From: a virus | DNA length: 23,138 bases | Virus record (IMG/VR): IMGVR_UViG_3300009537_000189 | Span: 1-23,138 of that record | Strand: one strand, 5' to 3' | Shown here: piece by piece, positions 13,012 through 20,822 of the stretch | Layout: every line of letters begins with the position of its first letter | Numbering within the stretch: the first letter of the stretch is position 1 | Notes under the pieces: generated by a model | The model's database searches: none | Told to the model about the DNA's origin: nothing | The model's input: the letters and a program-made list of their open reading frames with translations, nothing else | Position numbers and translations under genes: made by a program

Positions 13012-14085
13012 TCAGACCGCGGTTCCGACGAGAGCGCCCTGCGCCGTCAGCTTGTTGCAGATGGCGTTGCCGTCCATCAGGAACTTGGCGATGACGACAT
13101 CCTGGTCAGCCGTGCGATCCTCGAAGGACGACAGGCTGGGCTCGCGCCGCCACTGGAGTTCCCAGAAGTCGGTGTTGAGCATGTAGACCACGCCGTCGTC
13201 AGGACCGGGAGCGCCGGCCACGAAGGTCGAAGCGGCACGGTCGAGGTAGAGCGCGTAGGCCAGCTCAGCACGCTGACCGAGTTCCAGCATCAGCGTGGTC
13301 GACCGCTCGGTCTTCTCCTCGACCATCTTGGTCCGCACCTGGGCGAGCCGGTCGAAGTCGAAGTTGGCGTAGGTGTCCACGTCGGCGTAGATCAGGTCGG
13401 GACCCTGGCCGGTCGGGTCGAAGCTGGCGCAGCGCCGGTAGAGGTCGCGGAGCTTCAGCATGCCGTCGGTCGACCAGCCGCTGGAAGTGCCGAACTGGTT
13501 GTAGTGGGCGTAGGACTCACTCTTGGCCAGGCCGAAGACCGAGTCGGTCTGCGAGCCGGGGGCCGCGAAGTCGAGAACGCCGTCGGTCAGGCCGGTGCCG
13601 ACACCGCTGGAGTAGTCGCCGTTCAGGGTGACCCAGCCAGCCGCGTTGCTGTTGCTGATGACGTTGCCGGCAGCCTGCACGGAGGCGATCAGCCACCAGG
13701 ACTCGATGTCCTGCGCCAGCGCCTGGAGGTACGCCTGCGGGTAGCGCTGGATCAGCTTCAGGGCGCCGAGCTTGCCGTCGTTGATGTCCAGCTCCAGGCC
13801 GGGGATGGCGATGGCACCGGCCACGCGGGTCGTGCGGACCTGGAGGAGCTGGGTGTTGGCGATGCGGGTGGTGCTGAACACCTCGTCACCGTTGTCGAGC
13901 CGACGAGCGGAGCCCGGAGGCCCGCCGCTGAAGGGGCGCTCGATGTAGGTGCCGGAGTCCAGCGTCTCGACCTGAGCCTTCTCCTGGAGCTTGGTCCAGA
14001 AGGGCGTCGCGGTCGCGAACGACATGATCTGGCGATCCTTTCGGTCACTCAGCGTCGTGTTTAGGGTTTCGAGGGAGAGGGCCAT
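13012..14085 (-). CDS. Major capsid protein (HK97-fold type)
   Basis: The 357-aa product from ATG 14085 begins MALSLETLNTTLSDRKDRQI, a typical capsid N-terminus, with GGATAG 4 bases before the start. The frame is open to ATG 14136, but that codon has no ribosome site and lies in a hairpin loop, so I reject it. Features that fit an HK97-type capsid are the early helix and the ERPFSGGPPGSARRLDNGDEV segment (E-loop-like). There follow a long helical spine-like stretch (GKLGALKLIQRYPQAYLQAL and on) and a mixed domain with DLIYADVDTYANFDFDRLAQ and the C-terminal YMLNTDFWELQWRREP. No N-terminal protease or scaffold domain is fused to it. It has its own strong promoter and a decoration-like gene behind it, as expected for the most abundant virion protein. 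Confidence 0.85.
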   Translation of the reverse strand: MALSLETLNTTLSDRKDRQIMSFATATPFWTKLQEKAQVETLDSGTYIERPFSGGPPGSARRLDNGDEVFSTTRIANTQLLQVRTTRVAGAIAIPGLELDINDGKLGALKLIQRYPQAYLQALAQDIESWWLIASVQAAGNVISNSNAAGWVTLNGDYSSGVGTGLTDGVLDFAAPGSQTDSVFGLAKSESYAHYNQFGTSSGWSTDGMLKLRDLYRRCASFDPTGQGPDLIYADVDTYANFDFDRLAQVRTKMVEEKTERSTTLMLELGQRAELAYALYLDRAASTFVAGAPGPDDGVVYMLNTDFWELQWRREPSLSSFEDRTADQDVVIAKFLMDGNAICNKLTAQGALVGTAV

Positions 14086-14110
14086 GTGGCTATCCGTGGC
14101 GAGGGGTGGC

Positions 14111-14154
14111 GTCGACGTGAAACGCACGTCGACCATCGTCGAAGGGTGTGCGTT
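14111..14154 (-). promoter_or_regulatory. Mutually exclusive hairpins in the capsid mRNA leader
   Basis: In the leftward transcript, one hairpin pairs AACGCAC (14154-14148) with GTGCGTT (14127-14121) and holds an inner TCGAC/GTCGA stem with a GATG loop. A second pairs GTCGACGTG (14133-14125) with CACGTCGAC (14119-14111) as a perfect 9-bp stem with a 5-base loop. They share bases 14121-14133, so only one can form at a time. The layout resembles a leader switch, but the function is unknown. There is no U run for termination. Confidence 0.45.
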
Positions 14155-14336: not shown

Positions 14337-15524
14337 ATGAATCGAATCAAGCAGCAGCTGATGCGGATCCGCGCCAGTGAGCGATACCGGACGTTCGACT
14401 CGATGGTCGACGCTGACAGCTTTCGGGTGATCCAGGCGGCGCTGTCGGCGAAGACGCGGGCAGAGAGACTGACCGCCGTTGCCCGCCTGGTGCAGGTCGT
14501 CGCCAACGAGATCCTGCTGCCCCACTCTGTCGAGGACCTGGCCGAGGCGCTCGAAGCGACTGCAATCAAGATCGACAGCCGCCGAACCTGGCGGGCGATC
14601 CAAGACATCTCCTGCAACACCGACCGGTACGGCGACTTGCGCTGCCTGCGACTGGCCCCGCTCCCTGGCATCTTCGCGATCCGCTGGGAGTACCAAGACG
14701 CAGCAGACTCGCAGTGGTTCGCGACATCGCCGGAGGCAGAAGCGCGCCTGCGGCAGCACGTCGGCGACCGGTCGTGGGAGATCGGTGACCACTTGACGCT
14801 GCTGCGTGAGCACGCCGATGATGGGCTGCCGCGACCCGTCGGTTACGGCGACGCGCGCTTCGGGCCGACGCCGGCTGCTGGGACCTACGTCGGAGTGCCG
14901 GGACCCGCCGAGATCGCTGCCGACATCGTGCCAGACTCGACGACGCTGCTCGTCGGTCCCTCCGGTTGCGGGAAGACGACGCTCGCTCGCCTCGCCTGCG
15001 ATCATCTGCCCTGGGTCAAGCGGTCGCTGACCGTGCCGGGCAATCGCCTCGGCGACATGTTCGACGCGCTGCGGGAGATGCGGCCGGACCTGCTGATCAT
15101 CGACGACGTGCCGCTGTCTCACCACGTCGACAGCAACATGCTGTCAGCGATGGAGAACCTTCGACCCTACGTCGGCGCTACGATGCTGACGTTCATGTTC
15201 GACGGCGACGAGAGCCGCTTCTTGAAGCGGGGCGGCCTCTACTGGCCAGGCATGCGACCCGGGCGCATCGACCGCATCATTCTGCTCCACCGCCCCGACA
15301 CCGAACAGCGACGCGCGATTCTCGCGGCCTACCTGCCGACTGTCGCCGCCGACGTCATCGACGAGATGACTGCCGGTTCCGATGGCATGACCGGCGCCTA
15401 CCTGAAGACGCTCGCCGACGAAGTCAACCGCTGCGGACTCGACCGCTGGCAGGAGCGGCTGCTGATGCTGACCTACCAGATGCCGGTCGGCCGCGAGTCG
15501 CTGACCAAGAACGACGACTACTGA
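14337..15524 (+). CDS. AAA-family ATPase
   Basis: ATG 14337 has GGAGG 4 bases upstream. The 395-aa protein has an N-terminal helical region (1-110) and a linker. The AAA module starts near residue 185: Walker A GPSGCGKT at 207-214, Walker B LLIIDD at 252-257, and a second-region-of-homology signature MRPGRIDRIILLHRPD at 306-321. The RPGR arginine finger and following phrase are typical of classical AAA proteins such as FtsH, Cdc48 and Bcs1. A sensor-2-like segment (DGMTGAYLKTLADEVN) follows at 349-364. The Walker B ends in DD where most family members have DE, so hydrolysis may be slow or differently arranged. It has no membrane segment and no fused protease domain. It directly precedes the terminase gene. 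Roles could be unfolding for the Ntn hydrolase encoded 4.5 kb downstream, a replication or packaging helper, or remodelling of host proteins. Confidence 0.88.
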   Translation: MNRIKQQLMRIRASERYRTFDSMVDADSFRVIQAALSAKTRAERLTAVARLVQVVANEILLPHSVEDLAEALEATAIKIDSRRTWRAIQDISCNTDRYGDLRCLRLAPLPGIFAIRWEYQDAADSQWFATSPEAEARLRQHVGDRSWEIGDHLTLLREHADDGLPRPVGYGDARFGPTPAAGTYVGVPGPAEIAADIVPDSTTLLVGPSGCGKTTLARLACDHLPWVKRSLTVPGNRLGDMFDALREMRPDLLIIDDVPLSHHVDSNMLSAMENLRPYVGATMLTFMFDGDESRFLKRGGLYWPGMRPGRIDRIILLHRPDTEQRRAILAAYLPTVAADVIDEMTAGSDGMTGAYLKTLADEVNRCGLDRWQERLLMLTYQMPVGRESLTKNDDY

Positions 15525-15575: not shown

Positions 15576-17306
15576 ATGGCGGCGCAAGTAGACAAGATCA
15601 CGCTACCGAGCGGCGAAGTCGTCGTCCTGCCGGACGCGGACAAGATTCTTGGCTACGGCGAGCTGACGACGTGGGAAGGTCAGGACGTCGACCTGTGCCG
15701 GCTGATGTTCGCTAAGGGTCAGGAGCACCTGTTCTCGTCGTGCTGCAAAGTCATGAACGAGCAGACTGGCGTGTTTTCCTACTTGGACCCGACTCCCGCG
15801 CAGGCTCAAGTCGTTCGCGCCACCAGCGAAAACCGCTGGGTGATTGTGTCAAAATACAGGCAGGCAAAGACATCCACGATCCTGTTGATGCAGCTACTCC
15901 GCGACACAATGCTGATTCGAGGCACAGCGTCAATCATCATCGGCAACAAGGGAGCAACATCGGCAGAGATTTTCCGGCGCATCACATTCGCCTATAAGGA
16001 GATGGCAAAAGACCCTGACTTCAAGGGAATGGTCGCCCCGCTTGACCCAAAAAGAAAGAGCGAGGCGTTCGCTTTGTTCTTCGACTCGGGGTCCTCGATC
16101 CAGCTACTCTCTGCCGCGGCTTCGTCTGCCGGCGTGGGCTACAGCTCTGACCGCATCCTCTTTACCGAGGTCGGTGAGGTCGAGGACCTCGAAGACGTAA
16201 CAATGCAGCTGCTACCGGGCATCTGGAAAAGACCGCACGCCGCCGTTTGGATGGAGAGCACCACGGGCAAGATGGGCAGCGAGCACGAGCGACTGTGGCT
16301 CGAATCCTACGCAGGCAGCACTCGCTTCAAGGCCGTCTTTCTCGAATGGTGGAGAGACGACTCGTGCTGGAAAGACCCCGACGGCTTCGAGCCGACCGAT
16401 GAGGAAATCTCATACATGGAGCGGCACGAGGGCATGGACCTCGGCAACCTCGCCTACCGACGCGAGGCGATTGCATCCATCTACTCCGGCGACAAGACCA
16501 AGTTCGCCGCGAAGCATCCAAGCGACTATCGCGACGGCTGGCTCGGCGGCTCCAGCCCGACACTGCCGACGGAGCCGCTGCTCGACCTGCTGGTCAGCGC
16601 CGTCGATGACCCGACCGCGAGCCGGAAGTACGGTGTCGGCATCATCACCCCGCCAGTGCCGGGTCGGACCTACGCCGTCATCTGCGACCCCAACCGCTTC
16701 GGCGAGGATGGCGACGTTAGCGCCATCGAAGTCTTCGACCTGTGGAGCAACGAAGAGGTTGCCGTGTTCGAGGGCCGCGAACAGCCGACCGAGACAGCGA
16801 GTCGCGTGACCGACGCCAGCGACTACTACAACAACGCGCTGATCGTCGTCGAGGCGAACGCGGAAGGCGTCGTGACAGCGCTCGTCGACCGAGGCTACAG
16901 CCGTCGCATGTTCTGGTCCAAGCGCCGTTCGCCCGGATGGTGGGCGAGCACGCTGTCGATCCAGCGCGGCGAGACGCGGCTGACCGAGATGCTGACCGGC
17001 GAGGAGATCGGGCTCCGCTCTCGCGGGACCTTGCAGCAGCTCATCCCCTACAGCCCCGAGAGCCGGACCCGACGACAGCGCACCGACGGGACAAAGACGA
17101 CCCGGCACTTCGACCGTGCCCGTTGCGTTGTCATGTACGCCGATGTGCGCTGCCAGATCCCCGTTCGGCCGCCGCGGAAAGTCGATGACGATTCGGGACA
17201 AGACGTGACAACCCGTGACGACGGGGTTATAATCATTTCGTTCGCCGACGACTTCGACAAGCCGAAGCGTAGTGTTGGCCGCGGGCTGCCCTACAAACGG
17301 AGATAG
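15576..17306 (+). CDS. terL: Terminase large subunit (packaging ATPase and nuclease)
   Basis: The 576-aa protein drives DNA into the prohead and cuts the concatemer. The ATPase domain shows a Walker A variant of the terminase type, KYRQAKTS at 93-100 (compare R-x-x-Q-x-GK-[ST]). The Walker B-like strand is RILFTEVGE at 193-201, and the coupling motif is ESTTGKMG at 227-234. The RNase H-like nuclease has three acidic clusters: CDPNRFGEDGD at 370-380, VVEANAEG at 424-431, and HFD at 511-513. No small terminase is evident upstream; the preceding gene is the AAA ATPase. Codons for residues about 88-225 use many AAA, AGA, AGG, ACA and GCA triplets, unlike the flanks, hinting at recombination. The start has no ribosome site and lies on the predicted +1. 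The portal follows after 3 bases. Confidence 0.93.
   Translation: MAAQVDKITLPSGEVVVLPDADKILGYGELTTWEGQDVDLCRLMFAKGQEHLFSSCCKVMNEQTGVFSYLDPTPAQAQVVRATSENRWVIVSKYRQAKTSTILLMQLLRDTMLIRGTASIIIGNKGATSAEIFRRITFAYKEMAKDPDFKGMVAPLDPKRKSEAFALFFDSGSSIQLLSAAASSAGVGYSSDRILFTEVGEVEDLEDVTMQLLPGIWKRPHAAVWMESTTGKMGSEHERLWLESYAGSTRFKAVFLEWWRDDSCWKDPDGFEPTDEEISYMERHEGMDLGNLAYRREAIASIYSGDKTKFAAKHPSDYRDGWLGGSSPTLPTEPLLDLLVSAVDDPTASRKYGVGIITPPVPGRTYAVICDPNRFGEDGDVSAIEVFDLWSNEEVAVFEGREQPTETASRVTDASDYYNNALIVVEANAEGVVTALVDRGYSRRMFWSKRRSPGWWASTLSIQRGETRLTEMLTGEEIGLRSRGTLQQLIPYSPESRTRRQRTDGTKTTRHFDRARCVVMYADVRCQIPVRPPRKVDDDSGQDVTTRDDGVIIISFADDFDKPKRSVGRGLPYKRR
17205..17233 (+). promoter_or_regulatory. Promoter GTGACA-N17-TATAAT inside the terminase 3' end
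   Basis: GTGACA at 17205-17210, 17 bases, and a perfect TATAAT at 17228-17233 lie within the last codons of the terminase gene, 76 bases before the portal GTG. CGTGAC occurs twice here (17204 and 17214). It would raise portal expression above that of terminase. Being within coding sequence, it needs experimental support. Confidence 0.6.
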
Positions 17307-17309
17307 ATC

Positions 17310-19028
17310 GTGCCCAAACTGAAGGCGCTGTACTACCACCACCAGCGCTTTTACGAGGCAACCGAGAAGGCGCGGTTCGAGCGGGCGCACGACTACTACA
17401 ACGGGCGGTTCTACTCGTCTTCCGACCGCGACCTGCGCTACCGGGACGAGACGAACATCGCCAGCCACGCGCTGTCGAGCAAGAACCTCGTCTACGCCAT
17501 CGTCGACACCGCACTGTCCTTGCTGATCGGCAACACGATTGGCGTCGCGATGAACCCTCGGAACCAGTTCGCCGAGAGCAAGCGATCCGAGGTCGAAGCA
17601 TACCTCGACTACGTGTTCTCCGTGAACAAGATGCGGCGTCGGTCGACGACCGCGCTCCTCGACGCCGTGCTCTACGGTCGTGGCATCTTCAAGACCCGCT
17701 GGGACCAGCGCGAAGACGTCGCCAAGACGAAGACGATTCACCCAAGCCGGCTGTTCTTCGACATGGAGCAGCGCGACGCCGACGACATCTCCTACTGGAT
17801 GGAGACGACCGTCATCTCCACGAAGGAGTTTCACCGTCGCGTCAAGTCCGGCGCCTACGAGGGCAAGCGAATCGGCGACGTCAGCCCGGCCGACTACCCG
17901 AAGTGGCTGGACAAGCCGAGCGACTCCTACGAAGACATGCGCAAGGCGTTTCGATGGGTGACCGTCGTAGAATACTACGACGCCTACGAAGGCCGAGTCT
18001 GCCACTGGATCCCGCAGACCGATGAGATCGTGTTCAAGGGCGACGTGCCCTTCTCTCCCTACTCGATGTTCGCGCTGAGCCCGAACGGTCGCGACAGCCG
18101 GGGCCTGTCCGAGGTCCAGTTGATTCTGGACGACCAGGAAGCCCTCAACGCGATGAAGTCGCTGCTCAACGAGATCGCCTACCTCGCGATCCCGAAGTTC
18201 GCTTTCGACGACGCAAACCTCGACGCCAACAGCGCCCAGCGTCTGGCAGACGCCCCTCTCGGCTCATGGACGCCAATCGGCCGCGGCGAGTCCGAGACTC
18301 CCGGCGGCGGCGCGACGGTCAAGATGGAAGACCTGTTCAGCCGCATCCCGACACCGGAGAGCCCGGAGCCGGTGCTACGGGCAATCGAACGCGCCCAGGA
18401 CGACGCCGCCTTCGTGACGGCCTTCGCCGACCAGGCACGCGGCCAGGTGCAGAACGTCCGCACCGCGACCGAGATGGCGTTCGTCGAGGTGCAGTTGCAG
18501 ACCCGGACCAGCAACCGGCGCGCGATGTTCTTCGAAGCCGTCGAGGATGTCGCCGCCAAGTCGCTCGCCTACGCCAAGAAGTACATGAAGTCGCCCGTCG
18601 AGGTCAAAATGGCCGGCGAAGGCGGCTGGGTCGAGGTCGACCGCTGGCTGACCGATGTCGAAGCCGAGTGGCAAACGCTGGCGTACAACCCGCTGCGCGA
18701 CAACCCGGCCGTCCTCGGCGAGCGGGTACTCCAGATCATGGATGTGCTGGCCAACTCCGAGAACGTCGACAAGCGGGCCGTCGAGGAGTTTCTGCTCGAC
18801 TCACTGCATCTGCCGTCGTACCTGCTGCTCCCGAAGGAGGAAGTCGAGGAGCAAAAGGCTGCTGCCGCCGAACAACAGGCCGCTGCCGCTCCTGCTGCCC
18901 CCGGACCCGGCGACATCGACCCCGAGATGGCCGGAGCCCTTGTGCAGATGGGTGCCGAAGCCGGTCCCGAAGGACTCGCCGAGCTGGAAGCCCTCGGTGC
19001 TGCCGACGCCGGTATGCCGATCGCTTGA
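17310..19028 (+). CDS. Portal protein
   Basis: GTG 17310 follows the terminase stop by 3 bases, with GGAG about 8 bases upstream. The 572-aa product forms the dodecameric DNA gate of the head. Family-like features are NLVYAIVDTALSLLIGNTIG near 59-78 with the following MNPRN and the helix-rich wing segment RRRSTTALLDAVLYGRGIFK near 109-128. They continue with the Trp/Tyr-rich beta part (WMETTVISTKEF, WVTVVEYYDAYEGR) and the central segment SEVQLILDDQEALNAMKSLL with a long stem helix after it. The C-terminus (about 515-572) is Ala/Gln/Pro-rich (EEVEEQKAAAAEQQAAAAPAA), plausibly disordered or barrel-like inside the capsid. Its TGA stop lies inside the -35 box of the next promoter. Length is normal for a podovirus-type portal. 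Confidence 0.87.
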   Translation: MPKLKALYYHHQRFYEATEKARFERAHDYYNGRFYSSSDRDLRYRDETNIASHALSSKNLVYAIVDTALSLLIGNTIGVAMNPRNQFAESKRSEVEAYLDYVFSVNKMRRRSTTALLDAVLYGRGIFKTRWDQREDVAKTKTIHPSRLFFDMEQRDADDISYWMETTVISTKEFHRRVKSGAYEGKRIGDVSPADYPKWLDKPSDSYEDMRKAFRWVTVVEYYDAYEGRVCHWIPQTDEIVFKGDVPFSPYSMFALSPNGRDSRGLSEVQLILDDQEALNAMKSLLNEIAYLAIPKFAFDDANLDANSAQRLADAPLGSWTPIGRGESETPGGGATVKMEDLFSRIPTPESPEPVLRAIERAQDDAAFVTAFADQARGQVQNVRTATEMAFVEVQLQTRTSNRRAMFFEAVEDVAAKSLAYAKKYMKSPVEVKMAGEGGWVEVDRWLTDVEAEWQTLAYNPLRDNPAVLGERVLQIMDVLANSENVDKRAVEEFLLDSLHLPSYLLLPKEEVEEQKAAAAEQQAAAAPAAPGPGDIDPEMAGALVQMGAEAGPEGLAELEALGAADAGMPIA

Positions 19029-19053
19029 CGCAGTGCCGGCAGTAGACTAAACT
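19025..19053 (+). promoter_or_regulatory. Promoter TTGACG-N17-TAAACT, copy 1 of a 29-bp duplicated promoter
   Basis: TTGACG (19025-19030), 17 bases, TAAACT (19048-19053). The TGA in the -35 box is the portal stop codon (19026-19028). All 29 bases recur exactly at 19467-19495 and nowhere else that I saw. ATG 19081 follows 27 bases later with AGAGGAGG. Confidence 0.75.
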
Positions 19054-19080: not shown

Positions 19081-19470
19081 ATGCCGCTGTTCAACGTCAC
19101 CGCTGACTACGCCGAAGGTCAGATGGGTTACCTGGAGTCGTGGTTCGTCGTAGCCCCCTCGCGAGGCGCGGCAGCCGACTTGTTCCCGAAGGCGACGGCG
19201 CTGCACATCCACGACACATCGTGGGAATGGCTCGAAACTGAGGCCCTAAGCAGCGGCCGACTTCATGCGAATCGTCACGAAGCCACTGCCGAGATGGTGG
19301 TGAAAGCCGCCAGGAACGTGCTCGTAGTTCACAAGTGGCTACTTGACCTTCGCGACAAGATCGCCGAGAAAGAAGCCAACGGCGGCACGATGTTGATCGA
19401 CGTCGACCATGTCGTCGACTCGATTCTCGATGCGCCATTGCTGAGCGACAACTGCACAGCAGCCGGTTGA
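19081..19470 (+). CDS. 129-aa protein of unknown function
   Basis: ATG 19081 has an excellent AGAGGAGG site 4 bases upstream, and the gene sits between the two copies of the duplicated promoter, so it is its own small cassette. I do not recognise a family. The N-terminal half is mixed, with FNVTADYAEGQMGYLESWFV and an aromatic SWEWLETEAL. Residues 68-100 form a probable amphipathic helix (EMVVKAARNVLVVHKWLLDL) and the C-terminus has a short helix (DVDHVVDSILDAPLL). There is no signal peptide, membrane span or metal-binding cluster. The stop TGA is again part of a -35 box. Location among head-assembly genes makes a role in assembly or host take-over equally possible. Confidence 0.75.
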   Translation: MPLFNVTADYAEGQMGYLESWFVVAPSRGAAADLFPKATALHIHDTSWEWLETEALSSGRLHANRHEATAEMVVKAARNVLVVHKWLLDLRDKIAEKEANGGTMLIDVDHVVDSILDAPLLSDNCTAAG

Positions 19471-19495
19471 CGCAGTGCCGGCAGTAGACTAAACT
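19467..19495 (+). promoter_or_regulatory. Promoter TTGACG-N17-TAAACT, copy 2 of the 29-bp duplicated promoter
   Basis: Identical over all 29 bases to 19025-19053. The TGA at 19468-19470 ends the 129-aa gene. ATG 19511 follows 15 bases after the -10 box with GGAGG, so the leader is about ten bases. It probably drives the zinc-ribbon, Ntn hydrolase, membrane protein and following small genes. Confidence 0.78.
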
Positions 19496-19510: not shown

Positions 19511-20017
19511 ATGCTCGTCCACAACGGACTCATCTGCGACGCCGGTCACATCGAGGAGAGCGTCTTCTACAACCGACTGGAAGATCCGCCGGTCTGCCCG
19601 GCCTGTGACGGGCCGCGCCGAGTCTGGTGGGGACACCGCCAGGCACCGACGCTGTTCAGCGACGAGAAGCCGTCGCTCAACCTCGGGCCGCAAGCGTCTG
19701 CCGAAGCCGCCGAGCTGGCAACGACTCGCAACGGGCAACTTCGATTGAAGGCGCAACTTGAAGCCGCTCACCCCGGAAAGCGGGTCGAGTTCGAGCCGCC
19801 GTCGCACAAGCGCCGCGTCGAGTACGAGGAGCGCCGCCAGCAGACCATCGACTACCGAAAGAAGGGCGGCATCGACGTGCAGGCAGCCGCCGACCTGAAG
19901 GAGGCGAAGAAGGCCAAGGCCGCAGAAGCCGCGAACGCCGTCCGTGCCGCCGGGGGAACCGCCGCGCAGGCGAAGCGGGCTGCAACCGCCGCCGCCAGCA
20001 AGGAGATCGGCAAGTGA
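19511..20017 (+). CDS. Zinc-ribbon-like protein with Ala/Lys-rich helical tail
   Basis: ATG 19511 has GGAGG 4 bases upstream. The first 40 of 168 residues resemble an FmdB-type zinc ribbon: C9-D-A-G-H13 and, after PPV, C29-P-A-C32. The usual first knuckle is CxxCGH. Here one Cys is absent, so H13 may complete the site or zinc binding may be lost. The middle is polar with an Arg-rich part (SHKRRVEYEERRQQTIDYRK). Residues 125-168 are an Ala/Lys helix (EAKKAKAAEAANAVRAAGGT). Small zinc-ribbon proteins are common next to phage portal and head genes, but their function is not settled. It overlaps the Ntn hydrolase gene by 4 bases (GTGA), so the two are co-translated. Confidence 0.78.
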   Translation: MLVHNGLICDAGHIEESVFYNRLEDPPVCPACDGPRRVWWGHRQAPTLFSDEKPSLNLGPQASAEAAELATTRNGQLRLKAQLEAAHPGKRVEFEPPSHKRRVEYEERRQQTIDYRKKGGIDVQAAADLKEAKKAKAAEAANAVRAAGGTAAQAKRAATAAASKEIGK

Positions 20018-20553
20018 CCGTTCTCGTCGCACTCGTCGACAACGGTGTCGGCTACCTCGCGGCCGACAGCCGTATCTCGTTCAACGATCTCTACGTCGAC
20101 GGGGCGAAGAAGATCCACCGTCTCGGCAAGGCCCTCGTCGGCTTCTGCGGCGACACCGCCTTCGAGGGTGCGCTCAATGGCTTTCGGCCCCTGACCGCTC
20201 GTACCAGCGTCGATGCCTGGTGTCGGGAGCTGGCCGCCGACGTTCGCCGGCAAGCCGTCGCAGACGGTCACGGTTGCGCAGAAGCGGATGGCGTCTCCTA
20301 CATCGACGCGGCGATGCTGGTCGTCACCAACAGCAGCATCACGTACATCAACGGGGCCGGTGCCGTGGACGCGATCCCCGCACACGGATTCTCCATCGGC
20401 TCCGGCGGGGCAGTCGCACTCGGCGCCTTGACCGTGATGACCGACAACGGCGGGACCGACATCCGGCGGTGCCTGGAAGTCGCCGTCGACGTTGCGAAGC
20501 GGCACATCTCGTCCTGCGGCGGAACCACGGTCGTCGAGACGGTGACGAAGTGA
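20014..20553 (+). CDS. HslV/proteasome beta-type Ntn hydrolase
   Basis: GTG 20014 overlaps the previous stop (GTGA) and has AAGGAG 8 bases upstream. The 179-aa product is full-length for HslV (about 175). MTVLVALVDNGVGYLAADSR matches the start of proteasome-family subunits. After removal of Met, Thr is residue 1 and Asp is residue 17, as in HslV (TT...GDG), with the pair Lys31-Lys32 against Lys32-Lys33 in HslV. LGKALVGFCGDTAFEGAL matches the second helix-strand region, and FSIGSGGAVALGAL carries the GSGG that surrounds the catalytic Ser129 of the family. The C-terminus (EVAVDVAKRHISSCGGTTVV) has the usual last helix and strand. It probably makes a ring peptidase, cytosolic or inside the prohead. 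No HslU (ATP-dependent partner with I domain) is adjacent, but a phage AAA ATPase lies at 14337. Roles could include head-protein maturation or removal of host proteins. Confidence 0.87.
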   Translation: MTVLVALVDNGVGYLAADSRISFNDLYVDGAKKIHRLGKALVGFCGDTAFEGALNGFRPLTARTSVDAWCRELAADVRRQAVADGHGCAEADGVSYIDAAMLVVTNSSITYINGAGAVDAIPAHGFSIGSGGAVALGALTVMTDNGGTDIRRCLEVAVDVAKRHISSCGGTTVVETVTK

Positions 20554-20822
20554 CCGAACGGCTGCTGGCGGTACTTATCCTGCTCGCGTCTCTTGTAGAC
20601 GCCGGCCTGACGATAAACGCCATCGACCGGGGCGCGACCGAAGCCAACCCGCTGATGGCGAGCCTGCTGTCCTCGACTGCCCTATTCGTCGGCTTCAAGA
20701 CGGCGTTGACGGCACTCGGCGTCGCACTGCTGCTTCGCCTGCAAGCGGTGCGCTCGCTGCTGCTGATGGCGGTCGTCTACGTCACCGCACTCTGCTACCA
20801 CCTACTGGAGGGCTGCGGATGA
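20550..20822 (+). CDS. Small three-span membrane protein, DUF5658-like
   Basis: GTG 20550 overlaps the hydrolase stop by 4 bases (GTGA). The 90-aa product has three hydrophobic segments: about residues 5-20, 42-62 and 70-85. The phrase LVDAGLTINAIDRGATEANPLM (15-36) matches the D-x-x-x-T...G-x-x-EANPLM signature I associate with DUF5658 membrane proteins. A positive-inside pattern (Arg at 27, 63 and 68) is modest. Holins are small multi-span proteins too, so a lysis role is conceivable, but no endolysin is visible in the window. It also overlaps the next gene by 4 bases (ATGA), so it belongs to a tightly coupled operon. Confidence 0.78.
   Translation: MTERLLAVLILLASLVDAGLTINAIDRGATEANPLMASLLSSTALFVGFKTALTALGVALLLRLQAVRSLLLMAVVYVTALCYHLLEGCG

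Follow-up and report, generated by a model that had tools for sequence, protein, structure and literature searches.

The window analysed here, a 23,138-nucleotide (23 kb) IMG/VR contig that is possibly a fragment, carries on its plus strand, at 20014-20553, a gene for a proteasome-like (group I) Ntn threonine peptidase of the family phrog_1040. This is a real gene. It encodes 179 residues from a GTG start, a ribosome-binding site (AAGGAG, 19999-20004, plus strand) lies 10 nt ahead of that start, and its GC content by codon position (0.66/0.50/0.83) is similar to the values for terminase and portal. Both ends overlap neighbouring genes, its start with the stop of the preceding gene and its stop with the next gene. 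The preceding gene (19511-20017, plus strand), which is translationally coupled to the peptidase gene, encodes a 168-aa protein with a CxxxH and a CxxC motif, a possible zinc site. This protein had been called a zinc ribbon in a preliminary description of the same DNA; the two motifs are present, but neither Pfam nor PHROG gave a family match. The following gene (20550-20822, plus strand), likewise translationally coupled, encodes a 90-aa membrane-like protein of the DUF5658 family (Pfam PF18902, E=1e-11), in agreement with the membrane protein previously described.

Upstream on the same strand lie the genes for the portal protein (17310-19028; phrog_332, phrog_156, SU10_portal), the terminase large subunit (15576-17306; phrog_2, 1.2e-12) and, directly upstream of the terminase, an AAA+ ATPase that has an arginine-finger (SRH) motif and lacks pore loop 1 (14337-15524). 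The major capsid protein, of podovirus type, is encoded at 13012-14136 on the minus strand (NF033394, E=4.1e-17; phrog_9953); its score against NF033394 is 62.4 bits for a cut-off of 80, with residues 24-370 aligned to profile positions 5-308. The peptidase gene is thus downstream of terminase and portal, as was reported, and the proposal that it belongs to a head-assembly operon is correct only in part, since the capsid gene lies on the opposite strand.

A 29-nt repeat, TTGACGCAGTGCCGGCAGTAGACTAAACT, is found in two exact copies on the plus strand, one at 19025-19053 ahead of gene 19081 and one at 19467-19495, 15 nt ahead of gene 19511. The pair flanks gene 19081, and each copy overlaps a stop codon just ahead of the next gene. 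No exact repeat of 29 nt is expected by chance, and a scan of other viral contigs for this sequence found none. The copy at 19467-19495 contains a promoter-like TTGACG-17-TAAACT, and, on its sequence, we propose it as a candidate promoter for the sub-operon to which the peptidase gene belongs.

The catalytic residues named in the preliminary description are all present. These are Thr2 (mature Thr1; codon 20017-20019, plus strand), Asp18 (mature Asp17), Lys32-Lys33 (mature 31-32) and the GSGG loop (IGSGG, residues 128-132), together with Gly46. When 12 diverse relatives, E. coli HslV among them, are aligned, Asp18, Lys33, Gly129 and Gly131 are invariant, Gly46 is nearly so, and Ser, which occurs in a few relatives, is the sole substitute at the position of Thr2. 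Lys33 aligns with Lys33 of HslV, and Gly46 takes the position of the Gly47-type oxyanion residue. Thr2 is the predicted nucleophile once the initiator Met has been removed, and this removal, which would free Thr1, is permitted by the sequence. In BPH the removal of Met to expose Thr1 was shown by mass spectrometry (PMC5777263).

Over its whole length (residues 1-176) the protein matches phrog_1040, annotated 'peptidase HslV family', with E=1.4e-15. Matches to TIGR03692 (5e-8, weak and far under the cut-off) and to T. maritima HslV from the PDB (4.6e-7) were also obtained, and in a Pfam search PF00227 did not pick the protein up. As judged from these comparisons, the similarity to the proteasome and HslV families is far beyond chance. 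A confident AlphaFold2 model of the single chain, built from nine homologs (pLDDT 87, pTM 0.84), predicts the Ntn fold, with its strands and four helices arranged as in proteasome beta-type subunits and with helix H2 at residues 66-83. Using this model, Foldseek returned BPH (5ovs, TM 0.80) and HslV (1m4y, E=1e-12, TM 0.74), the best solved-structure matches being HslV, as well as proteasome beta subunits; its phage matches, with TMq up to 0.84, included the Gordonia phage Daredevil protein and one phage protein annotated as HslV. Together, the sequence and the model support the assignment of the product as a proteasome-like Ntn peptidase with a predicted Thr nucleophile.

Residues 84-98 (DGHGCAEADGVSYID; codons at 20263-20307, plus strand), which connect H2 to the next core strand, are predicted, from the sequence and from DSSP of the model, to form a long acidic pore loop. 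The segment contains D84, E90, D92 and D98, has no Lys or Arg, and includes two short predicted strands in the region where model confidence is lowest (block means 69). BPH has a pore loop that is long and acidic and whose short strands line the pore, and in HslV its place is taken by a short linker with basic residues at the pore; BPH has no known unfoldase partner and was inactive on model substrates (PMC5777263). Because the pore loop of the window peptidase resembles that of BPH, our analysis suggests that it may be an HslU-independent, self-gated double-ring peptidase.

Relatives of the peptidase are widespread among phages: one search of phage records identified 137 records that carry them, and further ones are encoded on dozens of IMG/VR contigs. 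Close relatives were not found in single-sequence scans of IMG/VR with the peptidase, portal or AAA+ protein, nor in a two-sequence terminase scan of the same resource, and tblastn of INPHARED with the portal gave no match. In a phylogenetic tree of sequences that included no identified BPH or AAH reference, the window peptidase, with at most 31% identity to its relatives, falls inside a phage-only clade (95/88, six rows) as sister to a Gordonia phage protein (97/89), and the HslV clade (100/100) leaves it out. Forcing it into HslV was rejected only at the borderline (AU test, p 0.055). Two observations on the distribution of the family may be added. The jumbo Caulobacter phage CcrSC (NC_048048.2) has at least three peptidase-profile loci, near 764, 47.5 kb and 228.4 kb, with a further terminal-repeat copy at 294 kb. 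A gammaproteobacterial MAG contig encodes a homolog with a full-length match (L015:8001-8594), with dnaA/yidC-type genes nearby.

Phage-borne proteasome homologs are a known kind of protein, since Fuchs et al. described PPH, AAH and CPH in 2021 (PMC8665760), and the window peptidase is a divergent new member of that kind. A proteasome-type peptidase had been presented earlier as an unusual solution for a phage; given a recognised PHROG family and the homologs published in 2021 (PMC8665760), this view no longer stands. A search of the literature found no demonstrated activity or substrate for any phage proteasome homolog.

Several other readings of the locus were weighed. The HslV/proteasome-like label used previously is sound as to Ntn/proteasome-like identity, but its HslV part is not. 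Against the curated HslV cut-offs the protein scores 32.8 bits for a required 157.75 and 32.7 for a required 137, it lies outside the 100/100 HslV clade (with the AU result only borderline), and its pore loop is BPH-like; identity as HslV proper was therefore rejected. The same scores and the same position in the tree make it quite unlikely that the peptidase replaces or joins the host HslV and is driven by the host HslU, although its similarity to HslV is full-length and its best solved-structure matches are HslV. The long acidic loop, where HslV has its short basic linker, also speaks against such a partnership. No HslU gene was found in the 23 kb of this possibly fragmentary contig, and the only AAA+ protein in it is not HslU-like. 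That the protein is instead a non-degradative member of the family, for instance a ligase or a single-site processing enzyme, is very unlikely. The family does include connectase, a monomeric ligase (PMC8665760), and low similarity leaves the specificity of the window peptidase open; however, helices H1 and H2, absent from connectase, are retained in it, and between S3 and S4 there is no space for the two-helix insertion of connectase.

The AAA+ gene at 14337-15524 is on the same strand as the peptidase gene and within 4.5 kb of it, and the best profiles for its product are proteasome-activating nucleotidase, FtsH and p97/AFG2, mainly through the SRH motif (RPGRIDR). A phage-encoded ATP-dependent protease made of the two proteins is nevertheless most improbable, because the ATPase has no pore loop 1 (a gap lies opposite it in the alignment to AFG2), has no relative detected in viral contigs, and is not a conserved partner. 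It is not closely related to the AAA+ proteins that other phages with the peptidase encode, and no AAA+ partner co-occurring with the phage homologs was found by Fuchs et al. (PMC8665760). Its Walker A Lys and Walker B Asp are separated by 43 residues, a RuvB-like spacing, as against 53 in a classical AAA protein of one surveyed sequence (L031) and 45 in a RuvB-like protein of another (L033), and it carries neither an HbYX nor an HslU-type tail. An HslVU-like pair with this neighbour was not supported, on the same absence of pore loop 1 and of partner conservation; an AlphaFold2 model of the ATPase reached a pLDDT of 37 and was left out of the reasoning. The narrower proposal that the two proteins form an ATP-driven protease acting on the packaging machine or procapsid is extremely improbable, and if true the pair would be the first of its kind in a phage. 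As a separate observation, the AAA proteins encoded by Erythrobacter phage L02 (L098) and CcrColossus (L099) score strongly against Pfam AAA, and their Walker B (IEDI) is unusual.

The position of the gene raises the question of a head-maturation (prohead) protease that would cut scaffold or capsid proteins, one of the roles first suggested for it. Several arrangements fit such a role. The peptidase shares its strand with terminase and portal in the window, where profile searches found no other protease, as had been noted; the order in Sinorhizobium phage phiM5 is terminase-peptidase-portal; and among viral contigs the peptidase directly follows the portal in one (L084), heads the order peptidase-portal-scaffold-capsid in two (L095, L065) and lies three genes after the capsid gene in another (L006). 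In 4 of 14 phage lineages it is near the terminase (within 0.17; binomial p 0.20). Across all 14, however, the scaled peptidase-terminase distance has a mean of 0.48 against an expectation of 0.5 (KS p 0.29); in this test some terminase positions are weak profile matches (CcrColossus, E=1e-6), and fragments were handled as if circular. The peptidase gene ends the early/replication genes of VpV262, apart from the structural block, and is far from head genes in Gordonia phages, phAPEC8 and others. Elsewhere its neighbours are Holliday junction resolvase, WhiB and replication genes, tRNAs and ParA, thymidylate synthase or phosphoesterase, as well as head genes. The window has the capsid gene on the opposite strand; the capsid protein, whose alignment begins at profile position 5, shows no visible N-terminal leader, and the peptidase sub-operon is headed by its own promoter-like element. 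According to the phiM5 record notes, portal, scaffold and capsid proteins were found in particles, and the peptidase is not among them.

Because the distance to the terminase is random and no leader is visible on the capsid protein, the data lend no support to a conserved role as head protease, and we consider prohead maturation unlikely for the window peptidase as well. A literature search, outside whose reach most subscription journals lay, found no prior claim of a phage HslV or Ntn head protease. In three separate lineages the peptidase gene is preceded, immediately or with one gene in between, by a gene for a calcineurin-like phosphoesterase (phrog_221/20266) or an exonuclease (phrog_284), the genes lying at L068:4727-5560, L095:4847-5998, L009:8716-9921 and L014:5567-6661.

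These data allow us to propose how the peptidase may work. After removal of Met1, Thr1 would attack peptide bonds with the aid of Asp17 and Lys33 (numbered as in HslV) and of an oxyanion hole provided by Gly. Most likely the subunits assemble into a ring of two layers whose active sites face inward, and entry is probably controlled by the long acidic pore loop rather than by an HslU-type ATPase. Such an enzyme would need no ATP, and its targets would be small, unfolded or specific proteins. We consider it most likely that it serves in infection as an accessory protease acting on host or phage proteins, rather than in a conserved step of head maturation; the neighbourhood survey argues against the latter in general and draws attention to a possible ATP-independent proteolysis during infection. 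Taken as a whole, an Ntn peptidase of the BPH/AAH/PPH/HslV group that forms a self-gated ring with an accessory role in infection is the explanation we consider probable.

Among known proteins, the phrog_1040 members VpV262 ORF47 and those of phiM5, phAPEC8, RHEph10 and CcrColossus resemble the window peptidase in having the same catalytic residues and in being phage-borne. The window protein keeps H2 in its 179 residues, whereas many other members of the family, at about 130-170 aa, lack that region. Gp62 of Gordonia phage Daredevil and its relatives, some of which are annotated 'protease', are its sister group in the tree and share the same residues; gp62 differs in being only 27% identical and in sitting in a replication/early region, not beside head genes. 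In the Gordonia phages DatBoi and Mollymur the gene annotated 'protease' adjoins a Holliday junction resolvase. These two are actinophages, among which Fuchs et al. reported no AAH-bearing phages (PMC8665760). PPH and AAH are alike in belonging to group I of the same superfamily and in being carried by phages. PPH is about 140 aa long and lacks H2, whereas the window peptidase has H2 and about 40 more residues; membership in PPH was rejected on its length of 179 aa and the helix at 66-83.

HslV is similar to the window peptidase in length, in Thr1/Asp17/Lys33, in the GSGG motif and in predicted fold, but differs in its pore loop, and the window protein stays under the curated HslV cut-offs and outside the HslV clade. 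BPH (PDB 5OVS) is the closest to the predicted structure by TM-score (0.80, the best obtained), has a comparable pore loop, long, acidic and with short strands, and has a Thr that directly follows Met1, as in the window peptidase. The two proteins share 17% identity, the window peptidase is phage-borne, and BPH is a heptameric double ring, a tetradecamer; the window protein was modelled as a single chain. As a divergent member that bears H1 and H2 and a predicted BPH-like pore loop, the window peptidase broadens the group of phage proteasome homologs.
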